From IMG/VR virus record IMGVR_UViG_3300032011_000043, positions 1 through 37,436 of that record: a stretch of DNA of 37,436 bases. One strand, 5' to 3'. The notes beneath the pieces are model-generated. The model made no database searches, was not told where the DNA came from, and saw only the letters and a program-made list of their open reading frames with translations. Below, in pieces: positions 1 through 28,662 of the stretch. A program made the position numbers and the translations under genes. The number at the start of each line of letters is the position of its first letter. Position 1 is the first letter of the stretch. Source of the stretch: a virus.

Positions 1-587
1 TTACTTGTATAGAATGGAAACACTTGATGTAGTTGTTTTGATGGAAACATTATCATTTTTCCTTCGTAACTTTTATCTACATCTAAAACATCACAACGAA
101 TATCTCCACTATAATCTGCGTTGATAAATCCAAATTTTGATGTGTAAATTTGCTCACCTTCTTTTTTTACATCTGCGAAGTATTGTTCTTCTTTTTGTAA
201 ATCATAAGGCACTTGTACAAATATAACAAAGGAATATATTCCTGAATGATCGTGGGGTGGATTAAACTCATGTTTCTTTTGGTGGTTTACCCATAGACTC
301 TCTATGTAAAAAGGTCTTGATTTGTTTAAAATTGTTAAAGTTTCTGTATGTAGTTGTATTTGTGGATGGCTTAAGCAATGTCCAAGTAGAAAATTCTCAA
401 AGTTTTTGTCCCATTCTAATTTGTATTCTTCTTTGATGTGTCCAATGAGATCGTGGTTTGCTTTTTTTGCATTTTGTTTAGCTTTTACACATTCTTTTTT
501 TAGCCAATTAAATGTATTTTTTGGTAGCTCCATGCCCGCAGCTCTTCGCCATTCTATCTTTTTTTGATCTGCTTCCCAGTTTGTCAC
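1..587 (-). CDS. 2OG-Fe(II) oxygenase-like protein, C-terminus cut by the window edge
   Basis: Partial gene: 195 residues are readable on the minus strand and the frame is still open at base 1. Start chosen as GTG at 587, because it overlaps the stop of the preceding small gene as GTGA and gives an N-terminus MTNWEADQKKIEW; an in-frame ATG at 533 is the alternative. Residues 107-116 read HEF then NPPHDHSG, a histidine/aspartate cluster (H112, D113, H114) followed by a beta-strand-rich stretch, and a second conserved-looking histidine (H187) lies in FPSKQLHQVF. This is the layout of phage Fe(II)/2-oxoglutarate dioxygenase-fold proteins. The distal arginine that would bind 2-oxoglutarate lies outside the window. 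Substrate unknown. It is the last readable gene of the leftward replication/accessory run. Confidence 0.72.
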   Translation of the reverse strand, partial: MTNWEADQKKIEWRRAAGMELPKNTFNWLKKECVKAKQNAKKANHDLIGHIKEEYKLEWDKNFENFLLGHCLSHPQIQLHTETLTILNKSRPFYIESLWVNHQKKHEFNPPHDHSGIYSFVIFVQVPYDLQKEEQYFADVKKEGEQIYTSKFGFINADYSGDIRCDVLDVDKSYEGKMIMFPSKQLHQVFPFYTS

Positions 588-2795: not shown

Positions 2796-2863
2796 TATTT
2801 ATCTAATCCATCAGTGTACCAGTCAATAAATCTGTTCCACTGTTTTTTAATCCATTTAATCAT
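2795..2863 (-). CDS. 22-aa amphipathic microprotein with a strong ribosome site
   Basis: ATG at 2863 is preceded by GAGGAGAAAAAA, a strong Shine-Dalgarno sequence at good spacing. The peptide begins MIKWIKKQWNRFIDWY and ends TDGLDK: three tryptophans and alternating basic/hydrophobic residues, as in a membrane-surface helix. TAA overlaps the next ATG (TAATG). It may be a genuine membrane-active peptide or mainly a leader that feeds ribosomes to the 103-aa gene. Confidence 0.6.
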   Translation of the reverse strand: MIKWIKKQWNRFIDWYTDGLDK

Positions 2864-3506
2864 TTTTTTTCTCCTCAATTTTATAGAAGAACCTATCGGT
2901 ATCTTCTGTTTTCCATTTACCCGTATCTTCTACATTCCATTCATTAGTCTGGACTTTCCAGTCTGGTACCTCATCCTTAACTGTAAAGGAAGGTAGACTC
3001 CAGATGATACGATTGTTTGGCTGAGCCGCATAATTGCCGTCTTCTAACGCCATTATGTGCGCGCACTTATGTTCGTGCGGAATTTCCGAATGTTCGGTAT
3101 CTAGTATATTACTTTCAGGATGAGCAAAGTCAACCGTAAAAAGGTATTTACCTTTATGTAATTTCTTATCTTTTCCGAAATATTTGCCTGATTGTCCTGC
3201 TAGAAGATCGAAAGTAGTAACAGCAGGATAATAACTGAAACAATTCCAAAGCTCCAACTCGTCAAGTCTAGGTCTAGGAACTTTGTCGACTTCAAAGTCT
3301 CTTTGAATGAAGGCAGATATCGGGAGACGATAGAAGATAGCACCGTTCTCCATAATCGCATGGAATAGGATAGCCCGTCCTGTAAGAGACGCCATCCCAA
3401 AGATAATACAGTCTTCAACTTCGCCGTGATGTTGTTTAAGGTCATATAAATATTCTCTCCTTATCTGTGCGTATTGTACAGGAATATTTGCATTTAAGTA
3501 AGACAT
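2856..3506 (-). CDS. Conserved phage protein of unknown function, 216 aa
   Basis: A soluble 216-residue protein starting MSYLNANIPVQYAQIRREYL with the following YDLKQHHGEVEDC. GAGG lies 7 nt before the ATG. I recognise the N-terminal pattern from a family found widely in marine phages next to DNA polymerase, never assigned a function. The middle contains several His residues (HSEIPHEHKCAHIM near 150-162), which could bind metal, and the C-terminus is charged. It begins 9 nt after the polymerase gene stop, so it is probably co-transcribed with the replication genes. Confidence 0.75.
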   Translation of the reverse strand: MSYLNANIPVQYAQIRREYLYDLKQHHGEVEDCIIFGMASLTGRAILFHAIMENGAIFYRLPISAFIQRDFEVDKVPRPRLDELELWNCFSYYPAVTTFDLLAGQSGKYFGKDKKLHKGKYLFTVDFAHPESNILDTEHSEIPHEHKCAHIMALEDGNYAAQPNNRIIWSLPSFTVKDEVPDWKVQTNEWNVEDTGKWKTEDTDRFFYKIEEKKND

Positions 3507-3515
3507 ATTTTAACC

Positions 3516-5366
3516 TCATTTTATACTACCCCAGTTGGGACCTGATTCATAATCTACTTTGTTTGGAACTTCAAGTTTTACTGCATCTTCCATGATATTT
3601 TTTATTTTTTCTGCATGTTCAGAATTTTGCACAGATATATCAAGTTCGTCATGTACCTGTATGTGTGGAATGATACCCTCTTTATATAATTCTATCATTG
3701 CTCTCTTAGTCATGTCTGCCGCAGATCCCTGAATTAATTTATTAAGAGCTTTATACGTATATGCTCTCTTGATCCCTGGTCCGTGTTCCATGAGCGCTGC
3801 GTCGTGAGGCAATGCTTTATGGATCCCGAACTGATTCGGTTCCCATAGATGGAAGCGACAAAGGCGACCTAGAAGTGTTCTAATCTTACCGGAATCTTGG
3901 GCTCTTCTCATTACATTATCCATAAGCTGTTTAACAAAAGGCACCTTATTATGATATTGTTTGAATAGACCATCCGCTTTATCTTTAGATACACCAAGTT
4001 CTGCTTGTAATTTATTTTTTCCCATACCATAGAACAGACCAAGATTTATAGTCTTAGCCTGTGATCTAGGTATCTCTGCCATATCAGCAACGATCGTATG
4101 AAAATCCGCATCACCTTCGCGATACGCATCCAATACTTCGTCCACTCCATAGAGATTCTGTAAAGCTGCATAATGTACTACCAACCTAGGTTCTTGCTGT
4201 GAATAATCAAAACAACCCCATGTATGGTCTTTCTCAGGTATAAATAAAGCCCTGATCCGTGGTCCAAGGTCTTTGTTTCTAGCTGGTATTTGTTGTAAGT
4301 TTGGATTTGAATAACTGAATCTTCCAGTTACTGTTCCTCCATTATCTCCTCGTAGCTGATTAATTTCAGCATGAATTCTACCTTTATGTGAATACTTAAT
4401 TATGGTATCAATGAATGTGGTATGAGCCTTATTTATTTCACGGGCTTGGGCAATTTTTTTCACCAGTGGGTGGGGGTGATTTTGAAGAAAGTTCTTAGTA
4501 AAGGAAGGCGCTTTTGTTTTTTCAGTTCTATCATAATCTAGTTTCAGCTCATCAAAAACTTGTGCGATTGATCTTGCTGCCCATATTTGAGTATCTATGC
4601 CTGTTTCTTTTTTTACTGATTGTATTAATTGTGATTCTTGTAAAGCTAGTTCTTTCTTCATTATGTGAGCACCTTCAACGTCAACCTTCACGCCAAGAAA
4701 ACGCATGGCCACAAGACATGGAAAAAGTTCCGTCTCGAGATCAAAGATAGATTGTATATCTTGGTGTAAAATTTCTTTCTTAAGTTCTTGCCAAAGTTCT
4801 AAAGTTAATTCAGCATCTTTTTCGGCATATGCTCCAACATAAATGGCAGGTAGTTTATACATTTCTGCCTTGGGGTCAACCCCCCAATCCTTCGCTGCTT
4901 GATATAAAGCGCTTTCATTTTTGGACATACCCGTGTATCTTTTTGAACAGTTGTTTAAGTCATAACGCATTTGATTCTCATCAACTAGGGCCGATGCAAT
5001 CATCGTGTCTACAATTTTACCGTTAATACTTAAACCTAAAGACTTAATCCAACATACGTCATACATGGCGTTGTGGAATATTTTTAATGAGGGTGTTTTA
5101 AGTACATCTTGAAACCATCCTAGGACTTTCTTACGATCCATATTACCACCGCCTTCATGAGCAATAGGATAATAACCAGACCAGCCAGGTACAGCTACTG
5201 CAATACCAGTGACATCTCCTTTACCTACGACGTTGCCTGATCCCATTTTCATAAGATCTGGGTCTTTTGTTTCTAAGTCAATTGCGATCTCATCATATTT
5301 AGATAGATCCGGAAATTCTTCTGGTGGTAACCATTCTGTTTGTGCTTTAAATAGTGGTATCTGCAT
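3516..5366 (-). CDS. polA: Family A DNA polymerase with 3'-5' exonuclease
   Basis: Replicative polymerase of the Pol I family. Start chosen at ATG 5366 (MQIPLFKAQTEW), with GGAAG just upstream; a longer frame to 5393 exists. Numbering from that longer frame: exonuclease motif I D39-L-E41, motif II FHNAMYD (about 106-112), motif III Y189-x3-D193; polymerase GRFSYSNPNLQQIP (358-370), motif A DYSQQEPR (396-403), motif B RSQAKTINLGLFYG (443-456) with K447 and Y455, motif C HDE (581-583). No 5'-3' nuclease domain. The residue equivalent to E. coli Phe762 is Leu451, a variant known from many marine viruses. Overlaps the DUF3310 gene by 20 nt. Confidence 0.96.
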   Translation of the reverse strand: MQIPLFKAQTEWLPPEEFPDLSKYDEIAIDLETKDPDLMKMGSGNVVGKGDVTGIAVAVPGWSGYYPIAHEGGGNMDRKKVLGWFQDVLKTPSLKIFHNAMYDVCWIKSLGLSINGKIVDTMIASALVDENQMRYDLNNCSKRYTGMSKNESALYQAAKDWGVDPKAEMYKLPAIYVGAYAEKDAELTLELWQELKKEILHQDIQSIFDLETELFPCLVAMRFLGVKVDVEGAHIMKKELALQESQLIQSVKKETGIDTQIWAARSIAQVFDELKLDYDRTEKTKAPSFTKNFLQNHPHPLVKKIAQAREINKAHTTFIDTIIKYSHKGRIHAEINQLRGDNGGTVTGRFSYSNPNLQQIPARNKDLGPRIRALFIPEKDHTWGCFDYSQQEPRLVVHYAALQNLYGVDEVLDAYREGDADFHTIVADMAEIPRSQAKTINLGLFYGMGKNKLQAELGVSKDKADGLFKQYHNKVPFVKQLMDNVMRRAQDSGKIRTLLGRLCRFHLWEPNQFGIHKALPHDAALMEHGPGIKRAYTYKALNKLIQGSAADMTKRAMIELYKEGIIPHIQVHDELDISVQNSEHAEKIKNIMEDAVKLEVPNKVDYESGPNWGSIK

Positions 5367-5640
5367 TTTCTTCCTTCCATTTTTTATAACCATCGGTCCA
5401 TGTTTCTTTTTTCTTTACGCTTGTTTGGGATTGTGGATAGTCTCTCTCTATCGCCATTTCACAATAGTGAATAGCTTTTAATAAATCTTCCTTCTTATTT
5501 TTTTGCTTGTGTCTACATAAATATTTAATAGCGTTCCCCTCCGCGAACGGTATGTTATTTTTATTTATGAATTCACTGGGCTGAATGACCATCGATTGAT
5601 AGTGGGATCCACCTATTTGCTTTTTGTATGCTTTACTCAT
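5347..5640 (-). CDS. DUF3310 protein (T7 gp1.7-like family), 97 aa
   Basis: Contains the DUF3310 signature: KQIGGSHYQ near residues 7-15, PSEFINKNNIPFAEGNAIKY (21-40), CRHKQKNKKEDLLKAIHYCEM to about 62. Known proteins of this family occur in phage nucleotide-metabolism and replication regions; T7 gp1.7, which carries such a domain, is reported as a nucleotide kinase. A kinase activity here is inference only, because no P-loop is present. The C-terminal 30 residues are basic and vary in the family. It lies between the UvrD-like helicase and DNA polymerase. Confidence 0.85.
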   Translation of the reverse strand: MSKAYKKQIGGSHYQSMVIQPSEFINKNNIPFAEGNAIKYLCRHKQKNKKEDLLKAIHYCEMAIERDYPQSQTSVKKKETWTDGYKKWKEENADTTI

Positions 5641-5641
5641 A

Positions 5642-7132
5642 TTATATTAAATACCCTTTCTCGTATCGTTTTGGTTCAATTATGTGCAAGTTTTCTTTTG
5701 TTCTAGTTGCACCCACATAGAACAATCTGTTTTCATCGTCTGGATCTCTTTCATAACCTTTCATTGTATTTTGTGTTAAGTCTGTTAATAACACAACATT
5801 TTGTGATTCACCACCTTTAGCTCCATGAATTGTTGATAATTCTATTCGTGGTTTTTCATTTAACTTTTCTCCATTGGCTCTCATCTTTCTTAAGTAATCT
5901 ACATTAGTTTGTCCTGCATCATTAAATGCTTCATACCAAACTGTTTTTACTTTTAATCCATAATCTTTAGTTAATTTATCAATGCCATAAAACGCATCTT
6001 TCACCATCCCTTTTATTCTATTCTTATCCCAATGCTTAGGCGTCATGTATTTTGAGATACTTTCTATTTGTTTGTAGGATACAAGTTGTCCTTTACGTGC
6101 ATTCTCCCAAGCTGTAGCTGCTTCATGAAGATCTTTCTCTGTTCCTCTTCTGTATTTAGAAGAGTAGTAAAGTCCTCTTTGATATAAAGACTCCTCAATT
6201 TCCCTTAGTAAATATTTAGTTCTAGCTAGTATGAGCCATTCTCCAGAGGACATATCGATTGTGTCAGCGCTAAAATGTCTATGTAAACTTCCTTGGTTAA
6301 CTTTTGGTTTCCAACTCTTATCTATTCTGTTTCTTATTCTATTAATAATACCCATCGCTACACCATGAACTTTAGCGGGTATCCGATAGGATTGTGTTAA
6401 TGGTAAGTACTGTCCTTTTAAAGCTATAAAAGAATCTACATCAGCTCCTGCCCATTTATAAATAGCTTGATCATCATCACCGGCAATAAAAGAATCTTGA
6501 GTTTTATTCCAAATAGTTTTTGCCATATCCCATTGCATTAATGATAGATCTTGTGCTTCATCTATGAATACTACATCAAACTTTGGTGACTTATCTGCTT
6601 TGGTAAATTCCAAAATCATGTCATTAAAATCTATTAGGTTGTAGTCTTTCTTATATCTTTTTAATTCATTAGCTATAATTCTAAGCGTACTACGTTCTAA
6701 GTCTTGTGTGTGTTCATTTAAATCAAATTGTTGTTCCGGTGTAATATTTCTAAGTTGTGCCAGCTGTATAATTCTTAGGTATTCACTATCCGAACTAAAG
6801 GTACTTCCTTGATCTTCTTGAAAATCTGCATATGTAACTGGGAAACCTAATTTTTTTCCTAGATCTTTATAATGTCGGGGTTGCATAACTTGTTCTTTCT
6901 TAATCCCGAGTCTTCTAAAGGCTAATGAATGAAGAGTCCTAAAGTACGGAAGATCATCTTCACCTAAGTTAAATTTTTTTATTGCTCTGTCTCGTGCTTC
7001 GTAGGCAGCCTTCTGTGTAAATGCAAAATAACCTACTTTATCAGGATCGGTTTGTTTTAAATATTCATCAACCTTATTTAATAAAGTTGTAGTCTTTCCT
7101 GTACCTGGTGGTCCTAATACAATAGTTCTCAT
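5642..7132 (-). CDS. UvrD/Rep-like superfamily 1 DNA helicase
   Basis: About 496 residues from ATG 7132 (MRTIVLGPPGTGKTT); the frame could be extended to a TTG at 7165 but the ATG forms an ATGA overlap with the stop of the upstream microprotein. Walker A GPPGTGKTT lies at residues 7-15, Walker B/motif II VVFIDEAQDLS near 187-196, motif III GDDDQAIYKWAGAD near 218-231, then LTQSYRIP, a STIHGAKGGE motif V and RLFYVGATRTKENLHI as motif VI near the C-terminus. These mark an ATP-dependent 3'-5' ssDNA translocase. It follows the primase gene and precedes polymerase, consistent with fork unwinding or recombination. Confidence 0.94.
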   Translation of the reverse strand: MRTIVLGPPGTGKTTTLLNKVDEYLKQTDPDKVGYFAFTQKAAYEARDRAIKKFNLGEDDLPYFRTLHSLAFRRLGIKKEQVMQPRHYKDLGKKLGFPVTYADFQEDQGSTFSSDSEYLRIIQLAQLRNITPEQQFDLNEHTQDLERSTLRIIANELKRYKKDYNLIDFNDMILEFTKADKSPKFDVVFIDEAQDLSLMQWDMAKTIWNKTQDSFIAGDDDQAIYKWAGADVDSFIALKGQYLPLTQSYRIPAKVHGVAMGIINRIRNRIDKSWKPKVNQGSLHRHFSADTIDMSSGEWLILARTKYLLREIEESLYQRGLYYSSKYRRGTEKDLHEAATAWENARKGQLVSYKQIESISKYMTPKHWDKNRIKGMVKDAFYGIDKLTKDYGLKVKTVWYEAFNDAGQTNVDYLRKMRANGEKLNEKPRIELSTIHGAKGGESQNVVLLTDLTQNTMKGYERDPDDENRLFYVGATRTKENLHIIEPKRYEKGYLI

Positions 7133-10498: not shown

Positions 10499-11929
10499 AT
10501 GAATTATAAATTTAAGACGAAACCATACAACCATCAGTTGACTGCTTTAGAACGGTCATGGAATAAGGAAAGTTATGCGTATTTTCTAGAAATGGGTACT
10601 GGTAAAACAAAAGTATTGATAGATAACCTAGCTATGCTTTATGATAAAGGCAAAGTAGATGGTGCTCTTATTATAGCTCCAAAAGGAGTTATAGGAACTT
10701 GGTATAATAATGAAATACCTGCGCATCTACCTGACCATATTGAGAATAAGACCGTTTTGTGGCAAGCTAACATAACTAAGAGTCAGTCTAGAAAACTAGG
10801 TACTCTGTTTAAAACAGGCGAAGAACTTCATATTTTAATTATGAATGTAGAAGCTTTTAGCACAGCTAAAGGTGTTGATTTTGCTCAAAAGTTTTTAGGT
10901 TCCCATAATACTCTTATGGCGATTGATGAATCTACTACAATTAAAACCCCTACCGCTAAAAGAACAAAGAATATTATTAAGTTAGCAGCCAATTCTAAAT
11001 ATCGAAGGATTATGACAGGTTCTCCGGTAACAAAGAATCCATTAGACTTATTTAGTCAGTGTGAGTTCCTTGATCCGTGGTTATTGAACTTCTCATCTTA
11101 TTACGCTTTTCGAAATAGATATGCTGAAATGAAAACACTCCATATGCATGGAAGACAGATCCAAGTAGTAAACGGGTTTAAAAATTTAGGAGAGTTATCC
11201 GATAAACTTAAAGGGTTTTCTTATAGAGTGTTAAAAGAGGATTGCTTAGATCTACCCGATAAAATATTTATTAAACGTCAAATTACCTTAACACCTGATC
11301 AACGTAAATTATATGAACAGATGAAGAAAGAAGCTATGGCTATTCTTAATGGTAAAAGGGTTACTACGGTTAATGCTTTAACCCAGTTAATGAGATTACA
11401 TCAAATAACTTGTGGTCATTTTACTGCGGATGATGGCTCTTTTCAAAGAATCCCTAATAACAGAGTATCTGAATTAATGAGTATTCTTGAAGAAACTGAA
11501 GGTAAAGCAATTATTTGGGCTCATTATCAATTAGATATTAAAGACATTCTTGCTCAAGTTAAGAAAGAATATGGAACAGACTCTATTGTTGACTATTACG
11601 GACTAACTCCTCAAGACGAGAGACAGCCTAATATTAAGAAATTTCAAGACGACCCTAAGTGCAGGTTTATGGTTGGAACGCCTTCTACGGGCGGCTATGG
11701 GATTACTTTGACGGCTGCAAACACCGTAATTTACTTTTCTAACGGATATGACCTAGAGAAGCGATTACAGTCCGAGGACCGTGCTCACCGAATTGGCCAG
11801 AAAAAATCAGTGACTTATGTAGATATAAATGCTGAGGACACTGTTGATGAAAAGATTGTAAAAGCTCTACGTAAAAAAATAAACATAGCATCAGAAGTTT
11901 TAGGAGAGGAATTAAGATCTTGGATTTAG
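10499..11929 (+). CDS. SNF2-like superfamily 2 helicase/translocase
   Basis: A 476-residue ATPase with Q-like motif YNHQ (10-13), Walker A EMGTGKTK (31-38), motif II D143-E-S-T146, motif III TGSP (173-176) and motif VI QSEDRAHRIGQ (424-434) with two arginine fingers. The HRIGQ ending is typical of SNF2-type enzymes, known to translocate on duplex DNA. In phages they are placed with replication or recombination genes, and one may assist the stand-alone primase here. First gene of the only plus-strand island; the leader is about 22 nt with a weak purine-rich ribosome site. Its end overlaps the next gene by 10 nt. Confidence 0.93.
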   Translation: MNYKFKTKPYNHQLTALERSWNKESYAYFLEMGTGKTKVLIDNLAMLYDKGKVDGALIIAPKGVIGTWYNNEIPAHLPDHIENKTVLWQANITKSQSRKLGTLFKTGEELHILIMNVEAFSTAKGVDFAQKFLGSHNTLMAIDESTTIKTPTAKRTKNIIKLAANSKYRRIMTGSPVTKNPLDLFSQCEFLDPWLLNFSSYYAFRNRYAEMKTLHMHGRQIQVVNGFKNLGELSDKLKGFSYRVLKEDCLDLPDKIFIKRQITLTPDQRKLYEQMKKEAMAILNGKRVTTVNALTQLMRLHQITCGHFTADDGSFQRIPNNRVSELMSILEETEGKAIIWAHYQLDIKDILAQVKKEYGTDSIVDYYGLTPQDERQPNIKKFQDDPKCRFMVGTPSTGGYGITLTAANTVIYFSNGYDLEKRLQSEDRAHRIGQKKSVTYVDINAEDTVDEKIVKALRKKINIASEVLGEELRSWI

Positions 11930-12396
11930 TTGAAATAGAAGACTTTTTACCAAAAAAAACTTGTAATTATTGTATTAAGTTTTTTGAAGCTAATAAAAAA
12001 CATTGGAAATCTTTTCAAAAGAGACACCTTATAAAGATACCAGTAAAAGATTCATTAAAACCTATTGATAGTAGGAATCTTACTAGATTGTATATAAAAT
12101 ATATGAAACTGTATCCAAATCATAAACTAAAAAATTTAGAAATACTAAAATGGCCAAGGGGTGAATATCATGACTGGCATGATGACACAATTTATTATGA
12201 TAAAACTACTATTACTTATCTTAATGAAGGCTACGAAGGTGGTAAAACTACAGTAGAAGAGTACACAGTAGAACCAAAGACAGGAAAAATAATATTATTT
12301 GGTGCCGATAAAAAACATAAAGTTTCAATGGTAACTAAAGGCCCCAGATACGTACTACTAGCCTGGTATAATAAAAATGAATCACGTAAAACGTAG
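11920..12396 (+). CDS. 2OG-Fe(II) oxygenase (prolyl-4-hydroxylase-like)
   Basis: Starts at TTG 11920, preceded by AGGAGAGGA at good spacing; no useful ATG exists nearby. The 158-residue protein has GEYHDWHDD (81-89), giving the HxD iron ligands H87 and D89, then LNEGYEGGKT, the distal histidine H133 in KKHKVSMV, and the 2-oxoglutarate-binding arginine R143 in GPRYVLLAWY. This is a complete Fe(II)/2-oxoglutarate dioxygenase core. Target unknown: protein side chain, nucleotide or lipid. It is cotranscribed with the SNF2-like gene, which suggests early expression. Confidence 0.88.
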   Translation: MDLVEIEDFLPKKTCNYCIKFFEANKKHWKSFQKRHLIKIPVKDSLKPIDSRNLTRLYIKYMKLYPNHKLKNLEILKWPRGEYHDWHDDTIYYDKTTITYLNEGYEGGKTTVEEYTVEPKTGKIILFGADKKHKVSMVTKGPRYVLLAWYNKNESRKT

Positions 12397-21398: not shown

Positions 21399-21562
21399 TA
21401 ATCTAAAAAGAAACTTCTAGCTTCTATCTCCTGTTTTAATTCTTCTTGAAATGTTGTGTTTAATTTTTCTAACACAGCATCTAAATCTCTTATTAAAGAT
21501 TGAGCTGTATCTGGTTGATACTCATCACTAGCTCGAGTTAATGTTTGTACTATCTTTGCCAT
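21398..21562 (-). CDS. Small helical protein, 54 aa
   Basis: ATG at 21562 shares its A with the stop of the stabilisation-protein gene, and its TAA overlaps the next ATG (both TAATG). The protein, MAKIVQTLTRASDEYQPDTA to EEIEARSFFLD-like acidic end (QEIEARSFFLD), should be two short helices with heptad-like leucines (LIRDLDAVLEKLNTTF). Possibly a chaperone or a small virion component; no family recognised. Position and fit support that it is real. Confidence 0.68.
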   Translation of the reverse strand: MAKIVQTLTRASDEYQPDTAQSLIRDLDAVLEKLNTTFQEELKQEIEARSFFLD

Positions 21563-23787
21563 TATCTTCTTCCTCCAGCATGTATGTCTAATCTAAAGGT
21601 ACCTAACTTCCACGTTGTATCTACTGCGGTATTAGATATCTTTAATGCTATGGCTCTTCCTCGAGCACGTGTATCTACCTTTGTAGTTGTAGGTGTTAAA
21701 GTAAAAGGTCCTAAAGGTGAGCTTGCGGCTGAATCATTAGGATAATCTCGAACATCGAGTTGAGCAACCACATTATTTTGTTGGGATATAAAGTCAGGAA
21801 TAATTCTACTTATCCTCATTATAAATTCACCATCTCCTCTAAGATCCGCTAAAGTACTCGCAGCTCCTCTAATAACTTTTTGTGTAATATCATAATCTCC
21901 AGAACTAATATTTGCTGGAATAGCTGTCGTAGTCGCATTGTGGTTCGTGACTTGATTAACTCCAGTTTCATGTTCATAGTAAATGGTAGTTCCTTCGGTA
22001 TTACCAGTTACATCAAACGATGTATCAGTACTAGCATCATATGATGTACCATGAGGTAAACCAAAAACAGCGGAGTCTTCCCATGCGCTTCTTGGATATA
22101 AAGAATTTGCATTTGTAAACCAAATGGGTCTTTTTGATGTTGAATCAAGATAACTATATGTCACTGCTCTATTTACTACATTTGAATCAGACGCTGGATA
22201 AAACCAAGTTACTTCACCAAACAAGTTATTAATACCTGCATAAATTAATTGACCTGATGTTGTATTAATATCATCATAAACATAGTCTTCAACTAAACAG
22301 TCCATAGATTCTAATTTACCAGTGTATCTAAAGAAACCATTATCAGACATCCAGTAAGCAGCGCCATCTACTTCAACGGCTGCGTTCATACCAATCAATC
22401 CACAGTTCGTTCCTACTTGTTCAAACGCAAATGTAAAAGGCTGCCCAACAAAACGCATTGTGAATAAAGACGTATCAGTCCAAATGTACATCGCATTTCT
22501 ACCAAGAGTAGCTCCCATGATCCGTGATCCGGCGGCCAGTCTTTGTGTACCTGCGGTGTTGGTTGATGTTGGAATCCAAGTATTTATATCTTCTTGGTCT
22601 GAGAATCTTATATACATGTCGTCTTGAGTTGATTGAGTCCCAATTGTTGTTTCAGTACCAAATAAAACTAAGTGTCGATCAGGTGTTGAAACTAACATAT
22701 CTCGAGATGCAGTTGGTGCACCCGTAATAATAGTAGCTCTTGTTGCTGTGGCATTGGATGCATCAGCATTCCATTCAAAAACCTGACCATTATGAATTAA
22801 GGCTATAAGTTTACTACCTAGGTTATCTATTGACCATAGACCTGGATCAATCACTGTATCAGTGTTATTCGCTGTTGATCCCCATCCCGTCCAACCTGAA
22901 GTATTAGTTACCGTAGCTCCATTGCTGTGGGAAGCGTTTGAGGTACCTCTGACGTTTCGAGTAATTCCTGTTATTGTACTTCCTGAAACTCCTGTGTAAG
23001 ATATTTCTTCACTTCCTACTTGAATATAATTAGTACCCGAAGTTGGTAGACCGGTTACACTAGTTAAAGTAATCGTTGTCCCAGAACCTCCTGTTCCGTA
23101 GGCGTTCGCTGATAAAGATCCGTTTAAAGTTGTAGTCCAAGAACCTAAAACGGTACCACCAAAAAGAGATATACCATAACCATAAGCTCCCACTTGTTCT
23201 GCAGGACCAACATGATAATATTGATAATAAGTTATACCTCCCGAAGTCGTAGCTCCTGATCCACCTTCATTACCAGGCATGGTAATTGTAATAGTGGATG
23301 TATCAGGAACTGATGTGACCATAAATTTTTTGTCACAGAAATCCGAAGCTCCAAAATTAGAACCTGTAATGGCAGTAAATGTAGTTGTATCTCCAAATAA
23401 GATAATGTCTCCAGCTGTAAAGGTGTGAGGCGAACCAAATGTAATTGTTACAGTTGGATCTCCGTTAGTAGTACTAAAACAATTAGTAAGAGCAGTTCCT
23501 GATGGATTAACTAGAGGATGAATATCATAATAAACACCTCCAGAATATACATATAAAATTCTGTTAGTGCCTATAGCAGCATATTTTATTGAATCTGAGT
23601 TAACAAAATGATGTAATTTTCTACATACACCGGTTAGTTTGTCTTGTCCTAACTGACTCCAGCCACCAATTTTTTCTGGTGTACCATATCTAAAACGAAC
23701 GTTTTCTCCCCCAGTCCATTGAGATTCAGCTCCGGTAGATGTAACTTGTTTATTAAACCCTGGTAAAAAACCTAATTTTTGTAACAT
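21562..23787 (-). CDS. P22 gp10-like packaged-DNA stabilisation / tail protein, 741 aa
   Basis: Starts MLQKLGFLPGFNKQ, then GAESQWTGGENVRFRYG and TPEKIGGW. This N-terminal signature (GxNxxxTxxGA..W..G.N.RFR.GxPEKIGGW) is shared with P22 gp10-type stabilisation proteins, which close the portal and join the tail. The body is beta-rich with repeated propeller-like aromatic strands; residues 235-300 look like an inserted Ig-like domain (TSVTGLPTSGTNYIQVGSEE). The C-terminus ends DIHAGGRR. Its own promoter lies just upstream, with AGGGG as ribosome site. The family suggests short-tailed virions. Confidence 0.8.
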   Translation of the reverse strand: MLQKLGFLPGFNKQVTSTGAESQWTGGENVRFRYGTPEKIGGWSQLGQDKLTGVCRKLHHFVNSDSIKYAAIGTNRILYVYSGGVYYDIHPLVNPSGTALTNCFSTTNGDPTVTITFGSPHTFTAGDIILFGDTTTFTAITGSNFGASDFCDKKFMVTSVPDTSTITITMPGNEGGSGATTSGGITYYQYYHVGPAEQVGAYGYGISLFGGTVLGSWTTTLNGSLSANAYGTGGSGTTITLTSVTGLPTSGTNYIQVGSEEISYTGVSGSTITGITRNVRGTSNASHSNGATVTNTSGWTGWGSTANNTDTVIDPGLWSIDNLGSKLIALIHNGQVFEWNADASNATATRATIITGAPTASRDMLVSTPDRHLVLFGTETTIGTQSTQDDMYIRFSDQEDINTWIPTSTNTAGTQRLAAGSRIMGATLGRNAMYIWTDTSLFTMRFVGQPFTFAFEQVGTNCGLIGMNAAVEVDGAAYWMSDNGFFRYTGKLESMDCLVEDYVYDDINTTSGQLIYAGINNLFGEVTWFYPASDSNVVNRAVTYSYLDSTSKRPIWFTNANSLYPRSAWEDSAVFGLPHGTSYDASTDTSFDVTGNTEGTTIYYEHETGVNQVTNHNATTTAIPANISSGDYDITQKVIRGAASTLADLRGDGEFIMRISRIIPDFISQQNNVVAQLDVRDYPNDSAASSPLGPFTLTPTTTKVDTRARGRAIALKISNTAVDTTWKLGTFRLDIHAGGRR

Positions 23788-23850: not shown

Positions 23851-24498
23851 TTATATCGTACGTGAGCCATCATCGTCTCCAATAGTTCCTTTAGGTAAAA
23901 TATTTAAAGCAAGAGAATGTCTATTTTGTTTTGTAAAATTAAAACCAATTTTATGTCTTAAAGTCGAAGGAAAAACTATTAAGTCTCCTTCTGTAACTCT
24001 TAAGACATATTGGTTTTGATTAAAATGTTTCCATTCTTTTGTAGGCACCGAAAAAAGACTAGGTAAACTTTTATCCAAGATTATAGACATTTCATCTTCG
24101 TAAGATCCATGAGGATAATAAACCGCACTATACCAATAATTACAATGTGTATGAAACTCCGAAACTGCATTAGGTTGACTCAGAGTTCCCCAACTGGTTT
24201 CTATAGTAAAATCTATATTATATTTAAAGTATTCTTGTATGGCTATTTTTATCTCTTTGTATAAAAGATCTTTTAAACTTTTAAATTCTCTAGTGTCTAA
24301 TACTTTTTTATTTTTTGATATGAGGTTTCCAGTAATAATTCTTTCTCTTTTATCAGAATTTAAAAGAGGGTCAGCAACAGTTACTCTATCCTTTTCTAAA
24401 TCTATCAAAGCTTGATGGTATTTTTTATGGTTGGTTTTTATATTAGTAAAATATAAACTTTCAGAAAAGATAGGTTGAATTATTCTATTACTCGTCAT
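23851..24498 (-). CDS. 2OG-Fe(II) oxygenase (PF13759-like), last gene of the sulfation cassette
   Basis: A 215-residue protein with SEFHTHCNYWYSAVYYPHGS (113-132). This is the HxHxxxxxSxVYY pattern of the phage 2OG-FeII_Oxy_5 group, giving H116 and H118 as iron-site candidates. The distal histidine H182 lies in FPSTLRHKIG, and R193 in NRHSLALNI as the 2-oxoglutarate contact. It would use Fe(II), oxygen and 2-oxoglutarate to hydroxylate an unknown target. It overlaps the preceding oxygenase gene by 11 nt. It ends about 60 nt before the stabilisation-protein start, a gap holding that gene's promoter. Confidence 0.85.
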   Translation of the reverse strand: MTSNRIIQPIFSESLYFTNIKTNHKKYHQALIDLEKDRVTVADPLLNSDKRERIITGNLISKNKKVLDTREFKSLKDLLYKEIKIAIQEYFKYNIDFTIETSWGTLSQPNAVSEFHTHCNYWYSAVYYPHGSYEDEMSIILDKSLPSLFSVPTKEWKHFNQNQYVLRVTEGDLIVFPSTLRHKIGFNFTKQNRHSLALNILPKGTIGDDDGSRTI

Positions 24499-25027
24499 TT
24501 TTTATACAAAAACCAAAAACCCACATAGTTCTTGGTATATTTCCTTTAACTGTATTACTACCATGATTTTTTTTAGATACTTCATAAACCCACAAATCTT
24601 TCTTTTTTATTTCAACAGTTTCCTTTTCTATTACTACATCTCCTTTTAAGGAATTACTTAATTTAACATTACAGTGTAGAGTAGTGTAACCTTTATACCA
24701 TATAGGGTCTAAATGCTCATAACAAGTATCTCCCTGAAAAGCACAACTAGCGACCATTCCGTATGGGTAAGGTGGTTTTTTATAATTATTTAAATTTAAT
24801 TTAGAAATAATTTTATTTCTTATCTCAAAAGCAGTTTTAGGATAAGTTATTTCATCTTCATTAGAATAGCGTGTTGTTATTCTGTTACCATTCATCCCTG
24901 CATCTTTAAAAAAAGATTTACTTTTATTTTCTAGTATCCAAGTATTCAATACTTCACATTCTTGGTCACTTATAAAATTATGATAAATTTTTAATTTTTT
25001 GTTTAATATCTTTGAGAACATTTTCAT
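24488..25027 (-). CDS. 2OG-Fe(II) oxygenase-like hydroxylase, 179 aa
   Basis: Start placed at ATG 25027 (MKMFSKILNKKLKIYHNFIS); the frame extends to 25093, but that would lie deep inside the kinase gene. The product carries an HxD iron motif in CYEHLDPIW, then TTLHCNVKLSN, the distal histidine in VSKKNHGSNT and an arginine in IPRTMWVFGF. This is a complete oxygenase core of the type fused or placed beside carbohydrate and protein hydroxylases. The gene overlaps the kinase by 50 nt in another frame and has no clear ribosome site, so translational coupling is likely. Confidence 0.8.
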   Translation of the reverse strand: MKMFSKILNKKLKIYHNFISDQECEVLNTWILENKSKSFFKDAGMNGNRITTRYSNEDEITYPKTAFEIRNKIISKLNLNNYKKPPYPYGMVASCAFQGDTCYEHLDPIWYKGYTTLHCNVKLSNSLKGDVVIEKETVEIKKKDLWVYEVSKKNHGSNTVKGNIPRTMWVFGFCIKNDE

Positions 25028-25370
25028 AATTATAGTTTTTAATTTCAAAAGTGCAATGATTTGGTTTTTCAAACATTTGGTTTGTATCATCAAATCTACC
25101 TTTCTTAATTGTATTCATCCAAACCTTTACATCATACTCATGTCTGTCTTCATCATAAGGACAAATAAAATCTATAATCGAAGGACCGTCTACAAGAGAA
25201 GATAAACATCCCATTCTCTGTGCTTGCCTTGTCCTACCTTCTGGGGAAAAATCCCAATCGTTAAACATCTTTCTAACTTCATCAGCGTTAAAATAAGCGT
25301 GACCTGCGGACAGCTGTCTTGCAAATGTTGTCTTGCCTGATCCGGGTAGTCCAAATACTAATATTCTCAT
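24978..25370 (-). CDS. Adenylylsulfate kinase-like protein (CysC-like)
   Basis: A 130-residue P-loop kinase: GLPGSGKTT (7-15). The spacing then follows APS kinase: NADEVR (28-33) aligns with DGDNVR of CysC, DFSPEGRTRQAQRM (40-53) with the GFSxxxRxxxIRR stretch, FICPYDEDR with FISPxxxxR, and GRFDDTNQMFEKP with the APS-binding GIDSVYEAP segment. CysC makes PAPS from APS and ATP. Odd points: the first acidic residue of DGD is Asn here and the protein is shorter than CysC (about 200 aa). It overlaps the sulfotransferase stop as ATGA, so the two are translated together. A different small-molecule kinase is the alternative. Confidence 0.78.
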   Translation of the reverse strand: MRILVFGLPGSGKTTFARQLSAGHAYFNADEVRKMFNDWDFSPEGRTRQAQRMGCLSSLVDGPSIIDFICPYDEDRHEYDVKVWMNTIKKGRFDDTNQMFEKPNHCTFEIKNYNYENVLKDIKQKIKNLS

Positions 25371-26107
25371 ATATGTATATGTTTAAATTTTTTTATAATT
25401 TTTTCACTTAAATACTTTTCTATTTTATAATTATTTTTTTTAATTTTATCAAATCGAATTGTGTGTAGATCTTTAACAGTATTACTATCTTCATAACTTA
25501 CATTGTCAAAGCTGTATTCTGATATTTTATTAACATTTAAATTTAATTCTTCGATATTTAGGTAATTAAAAATTTTGTTAATTTGATTTTTTGTATCTGT
25601 AACTAAATCATCATAAGTTATTTTTATGTAATTTTCATTTTGATTAATTATGTTTTTTATAGACCAAATGTTTTTTCCAATGATCCCCTCTTGATCCATC
25701 AATTCATCGCATCTTGCTTCAATGTTTTGAGGTTGTTCTATTTTAATAAAAGAAGCCAAGCATTCTAAAACAGGGCGTACTAAAATTATAAATTTTCTAT
25801 TAATAAAAATATTTTTTAACATTTCTAAATTAAAAGGGGTTCCCCACGGAGCTTTGTCTAATATGTTTTTTACATTAACGTTGCTGTAATAATTATTAAA
25901 AGAATTAGAGACTATATTATCAATTCCAGTATGATATGGAAAATTTAAAAAAATATGATTAGTTTTTAATAAGATTAATTCATGCATTATTTCAGGTAAT
26001 ATACTATTAGCAGAAACTTTTATTTGATCACTTTGATTAATTAAACTTGATAACAACGTAGAACCCGACCTTGGTAAAGCACAAAAAAAATAAAAGTTTT
26101 TATTCAC
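25367..26107 (-). CDS. PAPS-dependent sulfotransferase-like protein, 246 aa
   Basis: Starts MNKNFYFFCALPRSGSTLLS. The loop LPRSGSTLL (11-19) matches the 5'-phosphosulfate-binding loop of sulfotransferases. KFIILVRPVLECLASF (105-120) gives R111 and S119, eight residues apart, exactly as in the 3'-phosphate-binding Arg...Ser motif. The family moves a sulfuryl group from PAPS to a hydroxyl on sugar, protein or small molecule. It overlaps the small 73-aa gene by 8 nt and the kinase gene by ATGA. Acceptor unknown. The C-terminus is very lysine/asparagine-rich, reflecting the AT-rich DNA. Confidence 0.85.
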   Translation of the reverse strand: MNKNFYFFCALPRSGSTLLSSLINQSDQIKVSANSILPEIMHELILLKTNHIFLNFPYHTGIDNIVSNSFNNYYSNVNVKNILDKAPWGTPFNLEMLKNIFINRKFIILVRPVLECLASFIKIEQPQNIEARCDELMDQEGIIGKNIWSIKNIINQNENYIKITYDDLVTDTKNQINKIFNYLNIEELNLNVNKISEYSFDNVSYEDSNTVKDLHTIRFDKIKKNNYKIEKYLSEKIIKKFKHIHI

Positions 26108-26321
26108 TTTTTATTTCTTCATCTTCTCGAGTCATTTTCTGTACAAGTTGATTATCAAAATTTGAATTAAATGTTGCAACAATATGAAAAAGTGTATTGG
26201 TTAAATTTTTAAATGCTTCTGGCGAAAACTTTAATTTTTGATTTTTAATTAATATCCAAATTTCTTTCCAAGAAAAAATTATTTCAGCTGAACCGTCTTC
26301 TTTATTTTGCTTTATTATCAT
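26100..26321 (-). CDS. Small unknown protein of the cassette, 73 aa
   Basis: MIIKQNKEDGSAEIIFSWKE with the following IWILIKNQKLKFSPEAFKNL and an acidic C-terminus (MTREDEEIKSE). The N-terminal half looks like two beta strands, the C-terminal half helical. No family recognised. It overlaps the oxygenase gene upstream by 20 nt and the sulfotransferase gene downstream by 8 nt, which argues for a role in the same cassette, perhaps as a partner protein. Confidence 0.55.
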   Translation of the reverse strand: MIIKQNKEDGSAEIIFSWKEIWILIKNQKLKFSPEAFKNLTNTLFHIVATFNSNFDNQLVQKMTREDEEIKSE

Positions 26322-26850
26322 TTCTTTTTATACCCCAAAATCTACGTCTATCCATTGCCCAATCTTTATTTGGTCCATCTTGATTAACATAGTGTAAAAA
26401 AACTTGAGAATGCCAATCTCCTTGAAGATGTTCTCTAGAATGTTTTACGTCGCAACCTTTATAAACTACAGCGTCTCCGTCTTTTAAAATAATTTTTTTA
26501 CCATCCATAAAGATAGGCCATTTATATTTTTTATCGTGACCTATTTGTACAGTTACACTATATTCACACGAAGGCCTGTCCATGTGTTCAGGTAAATTAG
26601 AGCCTTGCGTATAAAGTCTCCAAAAGGAATAAGTGCAGAATAGTTTTATATTTAAATGTTTTTCTATTATTTTTTTCTTAGTCAACATTAAAGCTTCCAT
26701 AACAAAATCTCCATAGTAAGAAGTATCAAGATTGTTATTACTTGCATCAAAATTAGTAAAATTGTGCCTATGTGTAAGATCACAATAAATAGTTAGTATT
26801 TTCCTTTCTTCCTTTGTTAAAAAATTTTTTATTAATTTATATTTTTTCAT
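26302..26850 (-). CDS. 2OG-Fe(II) oxygenase-like protein, 182 aa
   Basis: Start chosen at ATG 26850 (MKKYKLIKNFLTKEER); a TTG at 26865 extends the frame by five residues. Key elements: LPEHMDRPSCEYSVTVQIG, with HxD (EHMD), DGDAVVYKGCDVKHSREHL, with distal-histidine candidates, and a tail GDWHSQVFLHYVNQDG. The 2-oxoglutarate-binding arginine position is unclear because R follows H directly in KHSREH; other proteins of this phage-type group have the same layout. The gene is second in the cassette after the PHYDPH-type oxygenase and probably shares its promoter. Confidence 0.8.
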   Translation of the reverse strand: MKKYKLIKNFLTKEERKILTIYCDLTHRHNFTNFDASNNNLDTSYYGDFVMEALMLTKKKIIEKHLNIKLFCTYSFWRLYTQGSNLPEHMDRPSCEYSVTVQIGHDKKYKWPIFMDGKKIILKDGDAVVYKGCDVKHSREHLQGDWHSQVFLHYVNQDGPNKDWAMDRRRFWGIKRNDNKAK

Positions 26851-26852
26851 AA

Positions 26853-27464
26853 TTAAATAATCCAAGAAACTACTGTGAATCTTACTCCTTTTGATACTTT
26901 ATTTACTTTATGGGGATATAAAAAATTACTTGGCCATAGTATTAATCTGCCCGCCTTTGGTTTTATAAGTATTTCTCTCTTATTAAAAACATCATAAAAG
27001 CATACTTCACCACCCTCATAATCATCATTCAAAAAAATAATACAACTTAAATTTCTAACCATTGTCGTACCATCAACATGATAATTGTAAAAATGACCTT
27101 CTTCATATTTTAATAACTGTAATTCATTCACTCGACCTTTTCCAATTTGTAAATCGTGTTTGTTTTGAAAATCTTTTATTGCTTTGTTTATAAAGAATGT
27201 TAATAAATTCGACCAATGAACATCAGTTAAAGATTTTGATAAATTATTTAAATCATATGTTAAAACTTTTCTTATATTTAAAGCTTTTTTAAAATCATCT
27301 GGACCTCCAACTTCGCCGTATGTCATTTCTTTTGTATTTGAATAAATTTTTAGAAAGTTACCTACGAGAGGTAAAGGGATGGCATTATCTGTAATCTCTA
27401 AAAATGGAATTAAATCCTTATACTCAAGTTCAGTTATTACACTAGGTTTTTCTTCTTTATTCAT
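26853..27464 (-). CDS. 2OG-Fe(II) oxygenase (prolyl-4-hydroxylase/PiuC-like), 203 aa
   Basis: First gene of the cassette. After a variable N-terminal region it has YEEGHFYNYHVDGTT, in which YNYHVDG gives the HxD pair, then LSCIIFLNDDYEGGEVCFYD, PKAGRLILWPSNFLYPHKVN (distal histidine in YPHKV) and KGVRFTVVSWI (arginine). All core residues of an Fe(II)/2-oxoglutarate hydroxylase are present. The leader is short, with the promoter TTGACT...TATATA just upstream. It is the most canonical of the six oxygenase-type genes in the window. Confidence 0.9.
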   Translation of the reverse strand: MNKEEKPSVITELEYKDLIPFLEITDNAIPLPLVGNFLKIYSNTKEMTYGEVGGPDDFKKALNIRKVLTYDLNNLSKSLTDVHWSNLLTFFINKAIKDFQNKHDLQIGKGRVNELQLLKYEEGHFYNYHVDGTTMVRNLSCIIFLNDDYEGGEVCFYDVFNKREILIKPKAGRLILWPSNFLYPHKVNKVSKGVRFTVVSWII

Positions 27465-27474
27465 TTCTAATCTG

Positions 27475-27502
27475 TATATATATCTTTATATTAAAAAGTC
27501 AA
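27475..27502 (-). promoter_or_regulatory. Promoter of the oxygenase/sulfotransferase cassette
   Basis: On the minus strand TTGACT (27502-27497), 16 nt, TATATA (27480-27475), with the first gene start at 27464. The spacer contains AAAGATATATA, similar to the AAAACGATATATAG element of the two other promoters. The -35 overlaps the 3' arm of a small hairpin. Confidence 0.55.
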
Positions 27503-28008: not shown

Positions 28009-28662
28009 CTATGCTAAGTCCTCATAAAAAGCTATAAAACCTGGTCCAGCTGGTACACCGCCCCCAGAGTCGGCATAGTTTCCTACCTGTTTTGGACTAC
28101 TTGTGTTTATGCCTTGTTTTCCGCCGCCCCAGACGCGAACATAAGCGTAGTTAGTACTACTAGCTGGTCCTTCTGATAAATCATATGTAGCATTAGTCAT
28201 AGTGCCTGTTGAACCTGGTGGTTTTGGACTCCACCCATGTGTTCCTCCTCCACCGCCGCCAGCACCAAAAGTAACTGGAGAACCAATTGAAGTTTCTCCA
28301 CCGCCGCCTCCGGTTCCATTTCCAGGAGGTGAATTTCCTCCGCCACCTACAGTATAGGGTACAGAATAGGGTTGAGAGACCTCAGCAGTATAAACTCCGT
28401 ATGCTCCATATCCTCCAGGAGATCGTCCTGATTGAGTATATCTCGCTCCACCGCCACCGCCGCCCATTGCATAAACCATGATTTTACCTGTTCCTGGCTG
28501 TGCAGTAAAAGTCCCTGAACTAGGGCCACCGTATGTTTTAGTTTCTATCCAAAGTCTTCCTCCACCTTCTCCTGAAGCTGCGGTAATAACTCTTCCAGAA
28601 GAATCAACTGTAATATTTGCAGTAGTGTAGGTTCCTTTTGCCGGTTTTATAATTTTAGGCAT
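28009..28662 (-). CDS. Glycine-rich tail adhesin / receptor-binding protein
   Basis: A 217-residue protein with many poly-glycine runs: MGGGGGGARY, VGGGGNSPPGNGTGGGGGET, GAGGGGGGTHGW and SGGGVPAGPGF. Such glycine-rich segments, which can pack as polyglycine-II helices, form the adhesin tips of T-even gp38-type proteins, and related glycine-rich fibres are common in marine phages. N-terminal SSGRVITAASGEGGG looks like a fibre attachment segment. It probably contacts the host surface. The runs are coded by GC-rich DNA, unlike the AT-rich neighbours. Confidence 0.72.
   Translation of the reverse strand: MPKIIKPAKGTYTTANITVDSSGRVITAASGEGGGRLWIETKTYGGPSSGTFTAQPGTGKIMVYAMGGGGGGARYTQSGRSPGGYGAYGVYTAEVSQPYSVPYTVGGGGNSPPGNGTGGGGGETSIGSPVTFGAGGGGGGTHGWSPKPPGSTGTMTNATYDLSEGPASSTNYAYVRVWGGGKQGINTSSPKQVGNYADSGGGVPAGPGFIAFYEDLA

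Follow-up and report, generated by a model that had tools for sequence, protein, structure and literature searches.

What a virus gains from genes for oxygenases, a sulfotransferase and a kinase packed together in its tail region is the question raised by a seven-gene cassette in the virus record IMGVR_UViG_3300032011_000043, of which positions 1 to 37,436 were analysed (this whole stretch of 37,436 nucleotides [nt] is the window). Sulfotransfer_3 genes have been reported in OM43 phages and in S-SKS1, where their function was stated to be unclear (PMC10580990); the sulfotransferase of the window is assigned to the same family and is tied to a dedicated kinase and to oxygenases. Viral cysC and cysD have been reported as sulfur-metabolism auxiliary metabolic genes (AMGs) (e.g., PMC12766990), and the annotation of adenylylsulfate kinase is known from viruses, but not as a sulfation cassette. 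A literature search, which did not cover subscription papers and preprints, found no description of such a cassette or of the kinase-nucleotidyltransferase pair described below.

From the gene content, its conservation, the predicted fold of the kinase, its contact residues for adenosine 5'-phosphosulfate (APS) and its association with a sulfotransferase, we infer the enzymatic activities, the product 3'-phosphoadenosine 5'-phosphosulfate (PAPS) and the target. We think it rather probable that the cassette hydroxylates and then sulfates a target, with a short-lid kinase supplying PAPS and a nucleotidyltransferase of the phage or the host making APS. This would make it a decoration cassette in the late region of an HTVC023P-type pelagiphage. 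Its 2-oxoglutarate (2OG)-Fe(II) oxygenases would hydroxylate the target, for which residues of the adjacent tail fibre are the likeliest candidate and a glycan of the host surface a less likely one, and the sulfotransferase would then sulfate a hydroxyl. The short-lid APS kinase, translated together with the sulfotransferase, would supply it with PAPS made from APS, and a nucleotidyltransferase of the HIGH superfamily would make APS from ATP and sulfate, forming with the kinase a compact PAPS synthetase. In the phage of the window, the source of APS might be a nucleotidyltransferase, encoded by the host or by phage sequence missing from the record, or else host AprBA. If this is right, phage sulfotransferases would have a function, and virions should be both hydroxylated and sulfated.

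Association of the kinase with sulfotransferases in viral contigs

Retrieval of IMG/VR contigs by the kinase alone yielded 102 contigs, 80 of which were kept. A sulfotransferase was present in 77 of the 80, a count that, like those of all our scans, comes from viral contigs related to one another and not from independent events. Two distinct families were represented: 66 contigs encoded the same family as the window (56 of them with 4-38 nt shared between its gene and the kinase gene), and 11 encoded a distinct Sulfotransfer_2-like protein that scored under the PF03567 cut-off (19.8 vs 22 bits). Of the three contigs without a sulfotransferase, two are truncated, with 69 nt or 229 nt left on the side where it would lie, and the third (L079) is a DNA-replication contig of 7 kb. 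On this last contig, which holds no sulfotransferase, the kinase-nucleotidyltransferase pair (5414-6128) lies beside clamp-loader-like, DNA polymerase-like and MT-A70-like genes. Most of the 80 contigs also held several oxygenases and a tail gene.

The scan that started from the sulfotransferase gave 73 new contigs, with oxygenases in 71 and the kinase in 19. The asymmetry (77/80 vs 19/73) indicates that the kinase depends on the sulfotransferase and not the reverse, as expected if the kinase is a donor supply and the host can often provide PAPS. Of 70 new contigs from a scan that started with the nucleotidyltransferase, 67 encoded the kinase; of the 54 with at least 2.5 kb of upstream sequence, 46 had a sulfotransferase. 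The number of other viral contigs with the cassette is well above one hundred. The original prediction had looked to a shared gene order in other phages; the association of kinase, sulfotransferase and oxygenases is kept, but gene order and oxygenase set vary between contigs. Its central proposal, hydroxylation followed by sulfation with a PAPS step carried by the phage, remains the best reading, with kinase contigs nearly always containing a sulfotransferase of one of two families.

Sister cassettes carry additional modifying genes. That of L072 includes the two halves of a complete carbamoyltransferase (9e-59 and 2.9e-25) and that of L005 an Asp/Asn hydroxylase, additions in keeping with a general scheme in which a hydroxyl is made and then capped. 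In L072, the C- and N-terminal halves of the O-carbamoyltransferase are separate open reading frames (ORFs) (4629-6280), located between oxyC and the nucleotidyltransferase gene.

Sulfotransferase, oxygenases and the likely target

Judged by its sequence, the cassette sulfotransferase is a member of the PAPS-dependent family, with both PAPS motifs present. It scored 45.0 bits against PF13469 (cut-off 27) and 41.3 bits against PF00685 (cut-off 22), and the structure of the CurM sulfotransferase (4gbm) matched it at 1.4e-4. R111 and S119 were located where the original prediction had placed them, and both residues and the PRxGxT motif were invariant in 14 relatives, down to ~34% identity.

Four 2OG oxygenases had been proposed. 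Two of them, oxyA and oxyD, are predicted 2OG oxygenases by both Pfam score and the HxD/HxH...H...R motif, whereas oxyB and oxyC are probable but tentative assignments. In oxyB, HxD and the distal H are invariant, with an Arg at +2 and none at +10/11; no Pfam family matched at E ≤ 1, PF00762 included, and profile-profile comparison with the oxyA family by hhalign gave a probability of 44%. For oxyC, no Pfam match was found and the profile comparison gave a probability of 1%. Its orthologues in L066, L067 and L072 share 77-78% identity, and a TTG at 25093 is a possible alternative start.

The family of oxyB carries the label 'ferrochelatase' (phrog_2954/phrog_3531). A role for oxyB as a ferrochelatase or heme enzyme was considered and rejected, since it has an HxD...H core instead of a ferrochelatase Pfam match, and the label looks like a misannotation. 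The same label underlies an iron/heme reading in the literature: Wittmers et al. (PMC9599517) described an oxygenase and 'ferrochelatase' as partner AMGs in HTVC023P-type pelagiphages and read them as iron/heme-related. Their genes resemble the present ones in phage type, oxygenases and 'ferrochelatase' (oxyB-like) genes, but in their text neither a sulfotransferase nor an APS kinase nor a nucleotidyltransferase is mentioned, unlike the cassette family described here.

The most likely target is a tail fibre, because the cassette adjoins fibre genes. The glycine-rich tail-fibre-like protein encoded next to it is a candidate substrate, and such a gene also lies upstream of the cassettes closest to that of the window. 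With the same chemistry, the sulfate might go to the host envelope or to a small molecule, in signalling or superinfection exclusion, and not to the virion; this version, which overlaps with our explanation in all but the target, has a chance not far short of even. Glycans and lipids are frequent substrates of bacterial sulfotransferases, and the chromosomal kinase-nucleotidyltransferase pair adjoins polysaccharide-type genes at three loci (L092, L105 and L154). The location of the cassette among late tail genes, with a fibre gene on one side and the stabilisation gene on the other, argues for the virion, as does the Asp/Asn hydroxylase of the sister cassette, which hints at protein substrates.

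Fold and APS-contact residues of the kinase

The kinase scored 23.9 bits against PF01583, above the gathering cut-off of 21.1 bits, and its fused homologues scored 27.9-37.9 bits. The P-loop GLPGSGK(S/T) was present in 21 of 21 phage members. An AlphaFold2 model (predicted local distance difference test [pLDDT] 92.7) was searched with Foldseek, and PDB ranks 1-42 were all APS-kinase domains (best E 3e-7, TMq 0.70-0.81). Apart from one, a fungal ATP sulfurylase matched through its APS-kinase-like domain, these 42 were APS kinases or PAPS synthetases, several of them APS-bound. The residues that hold APS in M. tuberculosis CysC are Asp480, Arg483, Phe492, Arg497 and Phe576 (PMC4373884). The first four of these correspond to D30, R33, F41 and R46 of the kinase, which are invariant in the 21 phage members and have invariant equivalents in the fused homologues as well. 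The residue and lid correspondences were taken from alignments with PDB structures.

The kinase is thus like CysC and the kinase domain of PAPS synthetases in fold, P-loop and the Asp/Arg/Phe/Arg positions, and it may act as CysC does. We did not file it as CysC because a defining feature, the lid, is largely missing; the CysC-like kinase originally proposed holds in its fold, P-loop and APS-contact residues but is not a canonical CysC. The short-lid form is common to cellular homologues.

A partner nucleotidyltransferase in related phages

An ORF of ~116 amino acids (aa) with GRFQPxHxGH and ISxTxIR motifs was found in 57 of the 80 kinase contigs, mostly overlapping the stop of the kinase by 14-26 nt. 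Its family match places it in the HIGH superfamily of nucleotidyltransferases (PF01467). The kinase and the nucleotidyltransferase form a single protein, kinase first, in Stenotrophomonas phage DLP_6, Clavibacter phage 33 and Xanthomonas phage AhaSv. Animal PAPS synthetases have the kinase-first domain order. In these cultured phages (L087, L088 and L089), the fused proteins are annotated as 'kinase' or hypothetical.

The partner shares its two motifs with Sat and NadM and has a weak fold likeness to CoaD and Sat, but it differs in its size and falls below the cut-offs of both families, scoring 16.3 bits against the gathering cut-off of 24.3 for ATP sulfurylase (PF01747) and 33.2 bits against the equivalog cut-off of 181.2 for arch_NMN_Atrans of NCBIfam. 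Its model (pLDDT 72) gave weak fold matches only, and because CoaD and Sat matched equally weakly, the predicted fold does not pick the substrate.

The kinase-nucleotidyltransferase pair in bacterial genomes

A scan of bacterial genomes recovered the pair in SAR11, SAR86, SAR116 and Marinimicrobia, as a fusion or as overlapping genes. Among 16 pair-bearing genomes, CysD was absent in 15 and Sat in 14, absences that are soft because many genomes are incomplete; 14 encoded a PF13469 sulfotransferase and nine a NadD above cut-off. At one alphaproteobacterial locus (L100), cysQ (equivalog, 294.8 vs cut-off 228.8 bits) lies ~14 nt upstream of the pair, and at another (L099) a similar cysQ-like gene lies directly upstream. 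The cysQ enzyme clears 3'-phosphoadenosine 5'-phosphate (PAP), the by-product of PAPS use. Of 148 SAR11 genomes, 116 encoded the nucleotidyltransferase and six CysD, never together (p = 6.9e-5, phylogeny uncorrected).

SAR11 has been described as lacking cysDNCHIJ and sat but containing AprBA, an enzyme able to form APS (PMC5069961). A phage-borne PAPS step had been expected to matter if the host lacks the pathway. The CysD/Sat route is indeed missing in nearly every genome tested, but the SAR11 group encodes its own pair, which makes it probable that the phage reinforces a step already present in the host instead of supplying one that is missing. The kinase and the ~116-aa nucleotidyltransferase could constitute a miniature PAPS synthetase, taking the place of CysDN/CysC or Sat/CysC in SAR11, SAR86 and their phages, and with it pelagiphages would sulfate hydroxylated tail-fibre residues; we advance this extended proposal tentatively and consider it, on balance, doubtful. 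If it is true, SAR11 could activate sulfate by means of a core kinase-nucleotidyltransferase pair, a hidden route. At L112, L116, L139 and other SAR11 loci, the pair adjoins a PhyH-like dioxygenase-like or an enoyl-CoA-hydratase-like gene.

Evidence against PAPS supply and other possible products of the pair

Besides the relatedness of the viral contigs, several observations weigh against sulfation with PAPS supplied by the kinase and its partner. Most of the kinase lid is missing (22 residues vs 57 in 3cr7), a loss that counts because in M. tuberculosis CysC the lid (552-581) contributes the ATP-stacking Arg559 and the catalytic Lys562 (PMC4373884). The lid motif RDxKxxY was not found in the phage kinase family alignment, and the kinase fell far short of the NCBIfam apsK equivalog cut-off (19.9 vs 138.7 bits); it further differs from CysC in its size of 130 aa and in having Asn in place of the first Asp of LDGD. 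The partner is nearer to nicotinamide mononucleotide (NMN) adenylyltransferases than to ATP sulfurylase, its best matches being archaeal-type NMN adenylyltransferases (1f9a, 4e-10; NCBIfam, 2.6e-9). A six-frame profile search found no nucleotidyltransferase anywhere in the window, and the membership originally proposed for the cassette is that of the window, not of the wider system. The three cultured phages with the fused pair lack a PF13469 sulfotransferase, other sulfotransferase families not having been searched. In SAR11, the pair was not associated with PF13469 (89/116 vs 23/32, p = 0.64), 18 genomes with a sulfotransferase lack both routes, and the pair sits near one-carbon (C1)/osmolyte-type genes, away from sulfotransferases.

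The missing lid and catalytic Lys suggest an altered active site, and the partner is not a Sat homologue by family, which would suit a pair that makes another activated 3'-phosphonucleotide whose group the 'sulfotransferase' transfers. An analogy is the CysC-like cytidine diphosphate (CDP)-amidate kinase that acts in Campylobacter capsule biosynthesis. We regard such a product as unlikely, since the positions of the phosphosulfate-binding Arg pair and the adenine-stacking Phe are invariant and two sulfotransferase families pair with the kinase. The cysQ adjacency at two loci and the exclusion of CysD also favour PAPS, although cysQ would suit other 3'-phosphonucleotides too.

Synthesis of NAD by a nicotinamide riboside kinase and an NMN adenylyltransferase (NadR-like), which would only share a hypervariable locus with the sulfotransferase, would account for the best matches of the partner and for a pair that occurs without a PF13469 sulfotransferase in the three cultured phages and far from sulfotransferase genes in SAR11. 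It appears very improbable, since the kinase matches APS kinases and not ribosylnicotinamide kinases by both profile and fold, is accompanied by a sulfotransferase in nearly all phage contigs, and has a partner far from the NMN adenylyltransferase equivalog cut-off. NMN adenylyltransferase is, moreover, not generally missing in the pair-bearing hosts, because nine of the 16 have NadD.

That the oxygenases, the sulfotransferase and the kinase are independent morons in a hypervariable tail-fibre locus, with no shared pathway, would agree with the low GC content of the island, with the varying gene order and oxygenase set and with cultured HTVC023P and HTVC027P, which have oxygenases at the same site without an annotated sulfotransferase or kinase, but this has little probability given the kinase/sulfotransferase overlaps in 56 contigs, the oxygenases in 71 of 73 sulfotransferase-first contigs and the one-way dependence of the kinase on the sulfotransferase, which hitchhiking alone does not explain.

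The phage and the layout of the locus

The DNA is probably a fragment of an HTVC023P-type pelagiphage, a phage type that infects SAR11, the bacteria that are most numerous in the ocean. The DNA polymerase of the window shares 65% identity with that of phage 023Pt_psg01 and 62% with that of Pelagibacter phage HTVC027P, and the tail stabilisation-like protein shares 44-45% with its counterparts in HTVC027P, HTVC023P and 023Pt_psg01. A search for close nucleotide relatives among annotated phages gave a single weak match. The window is probably incomplete because the virus record (G000) has 37.4 kb compared with 57-61 kb for relatives.

The seven ORFs occupy the minus strand at 23851-27464 (Table 1), overlapping in the order originally described; from oxyA to oxyD, the joints overlap by 13, 20, 8, 4, ~50 and 11 nt. 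We take them as one operon because of these overlaps and not because of a promoter: the one proposed at 27475-27502 was not recovered, as the scan gave no minus-strand site there and the region had 22 sites, compared with 25.2 ± 4.8 in shuffles. The GC content of the cassette is 27.1%, compared with 36.3% in the remaining window, and is near the lowest for its length anywhere in the window. The cassette is flanked by the glycine-rich tail-fibre-like gene and the tail stabilisation gene.

Table 1. Coordinates of the cassette genes and their neighbours in the window, with the matches and motifs behind each assignment (PSB, phosphosulfate-binding; PB, phosphate-binding)
Feature	Size	Position	Strand	Matches and motifs
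oxyA, predicted 2OG-Fe(II) oxygenase	203 aa	26853..27464	-	PF13640 1.3e-18; phrog_61 1.3e-32; HVD129...H185...R195
oxyB, probable 2OG-type oxygenase	187 aa	26302..26865	-	phrog_2954 2.7e-45 ('ferrochelatase'); HMD94, H142-x-R144 invariant
73-aa protein, function without assignment	73 aa	26100..26321	-	Ssu72 Pfam match below cut-off
Sulfotransferase (predicted)	246 aa, GTG start	25367..26107	-	PF13469 2e-11; PF00685 1.6e-10; LPRSGSTLL 5'-PSB; R111/S119 3'-PB
Short-lid APS-kinase-like P-loop kinase	130 aa	24978..25370	-	PF01583; start overlaps sulfotransferase stop by 4 nt
oxyC, probable 2OG oxygenase	179 aa from internal ATG	24488..25027	-	phrog_274 5.9e-4; HLD105...H155...R166
oxyD, predicted 2OG oxygenase	215 aa	23851..24498	-	PF13759 6e-14; phrog_81 2.5e-27; HTH116...H182...R193
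Glycine-rich tail-fibre-like protein		28009..28662	-	phrog_863 'tail fiber assembly' 7.7e-9; Gly_rich_2 below cut-off
Tail stabilisation-like structural protein		21562..23787	-	phrog_3287 6.1e-98; flanks cassette

The 73-aa protein had six members among 81 sequences searched, confined to the cassettes closest to that of the window. A defence system was also considered for the cassette and rejected, since PADLOC yielded just a generic '2OG' model, CRISPR-associated, along with spurious P-loop matches. Outside the cassette, the window contains two more 2OG-oxygenase-like genes, at 11920-12396 (plus strand) and 3-587 (minus strand), with matches to phrog_2297/phrog_61 and phrog_81, respectively. 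The gene at 2856-3506, which adjoins the DNA polymerase gene, matches phrog_3704, labelled 'ferredoxin'.

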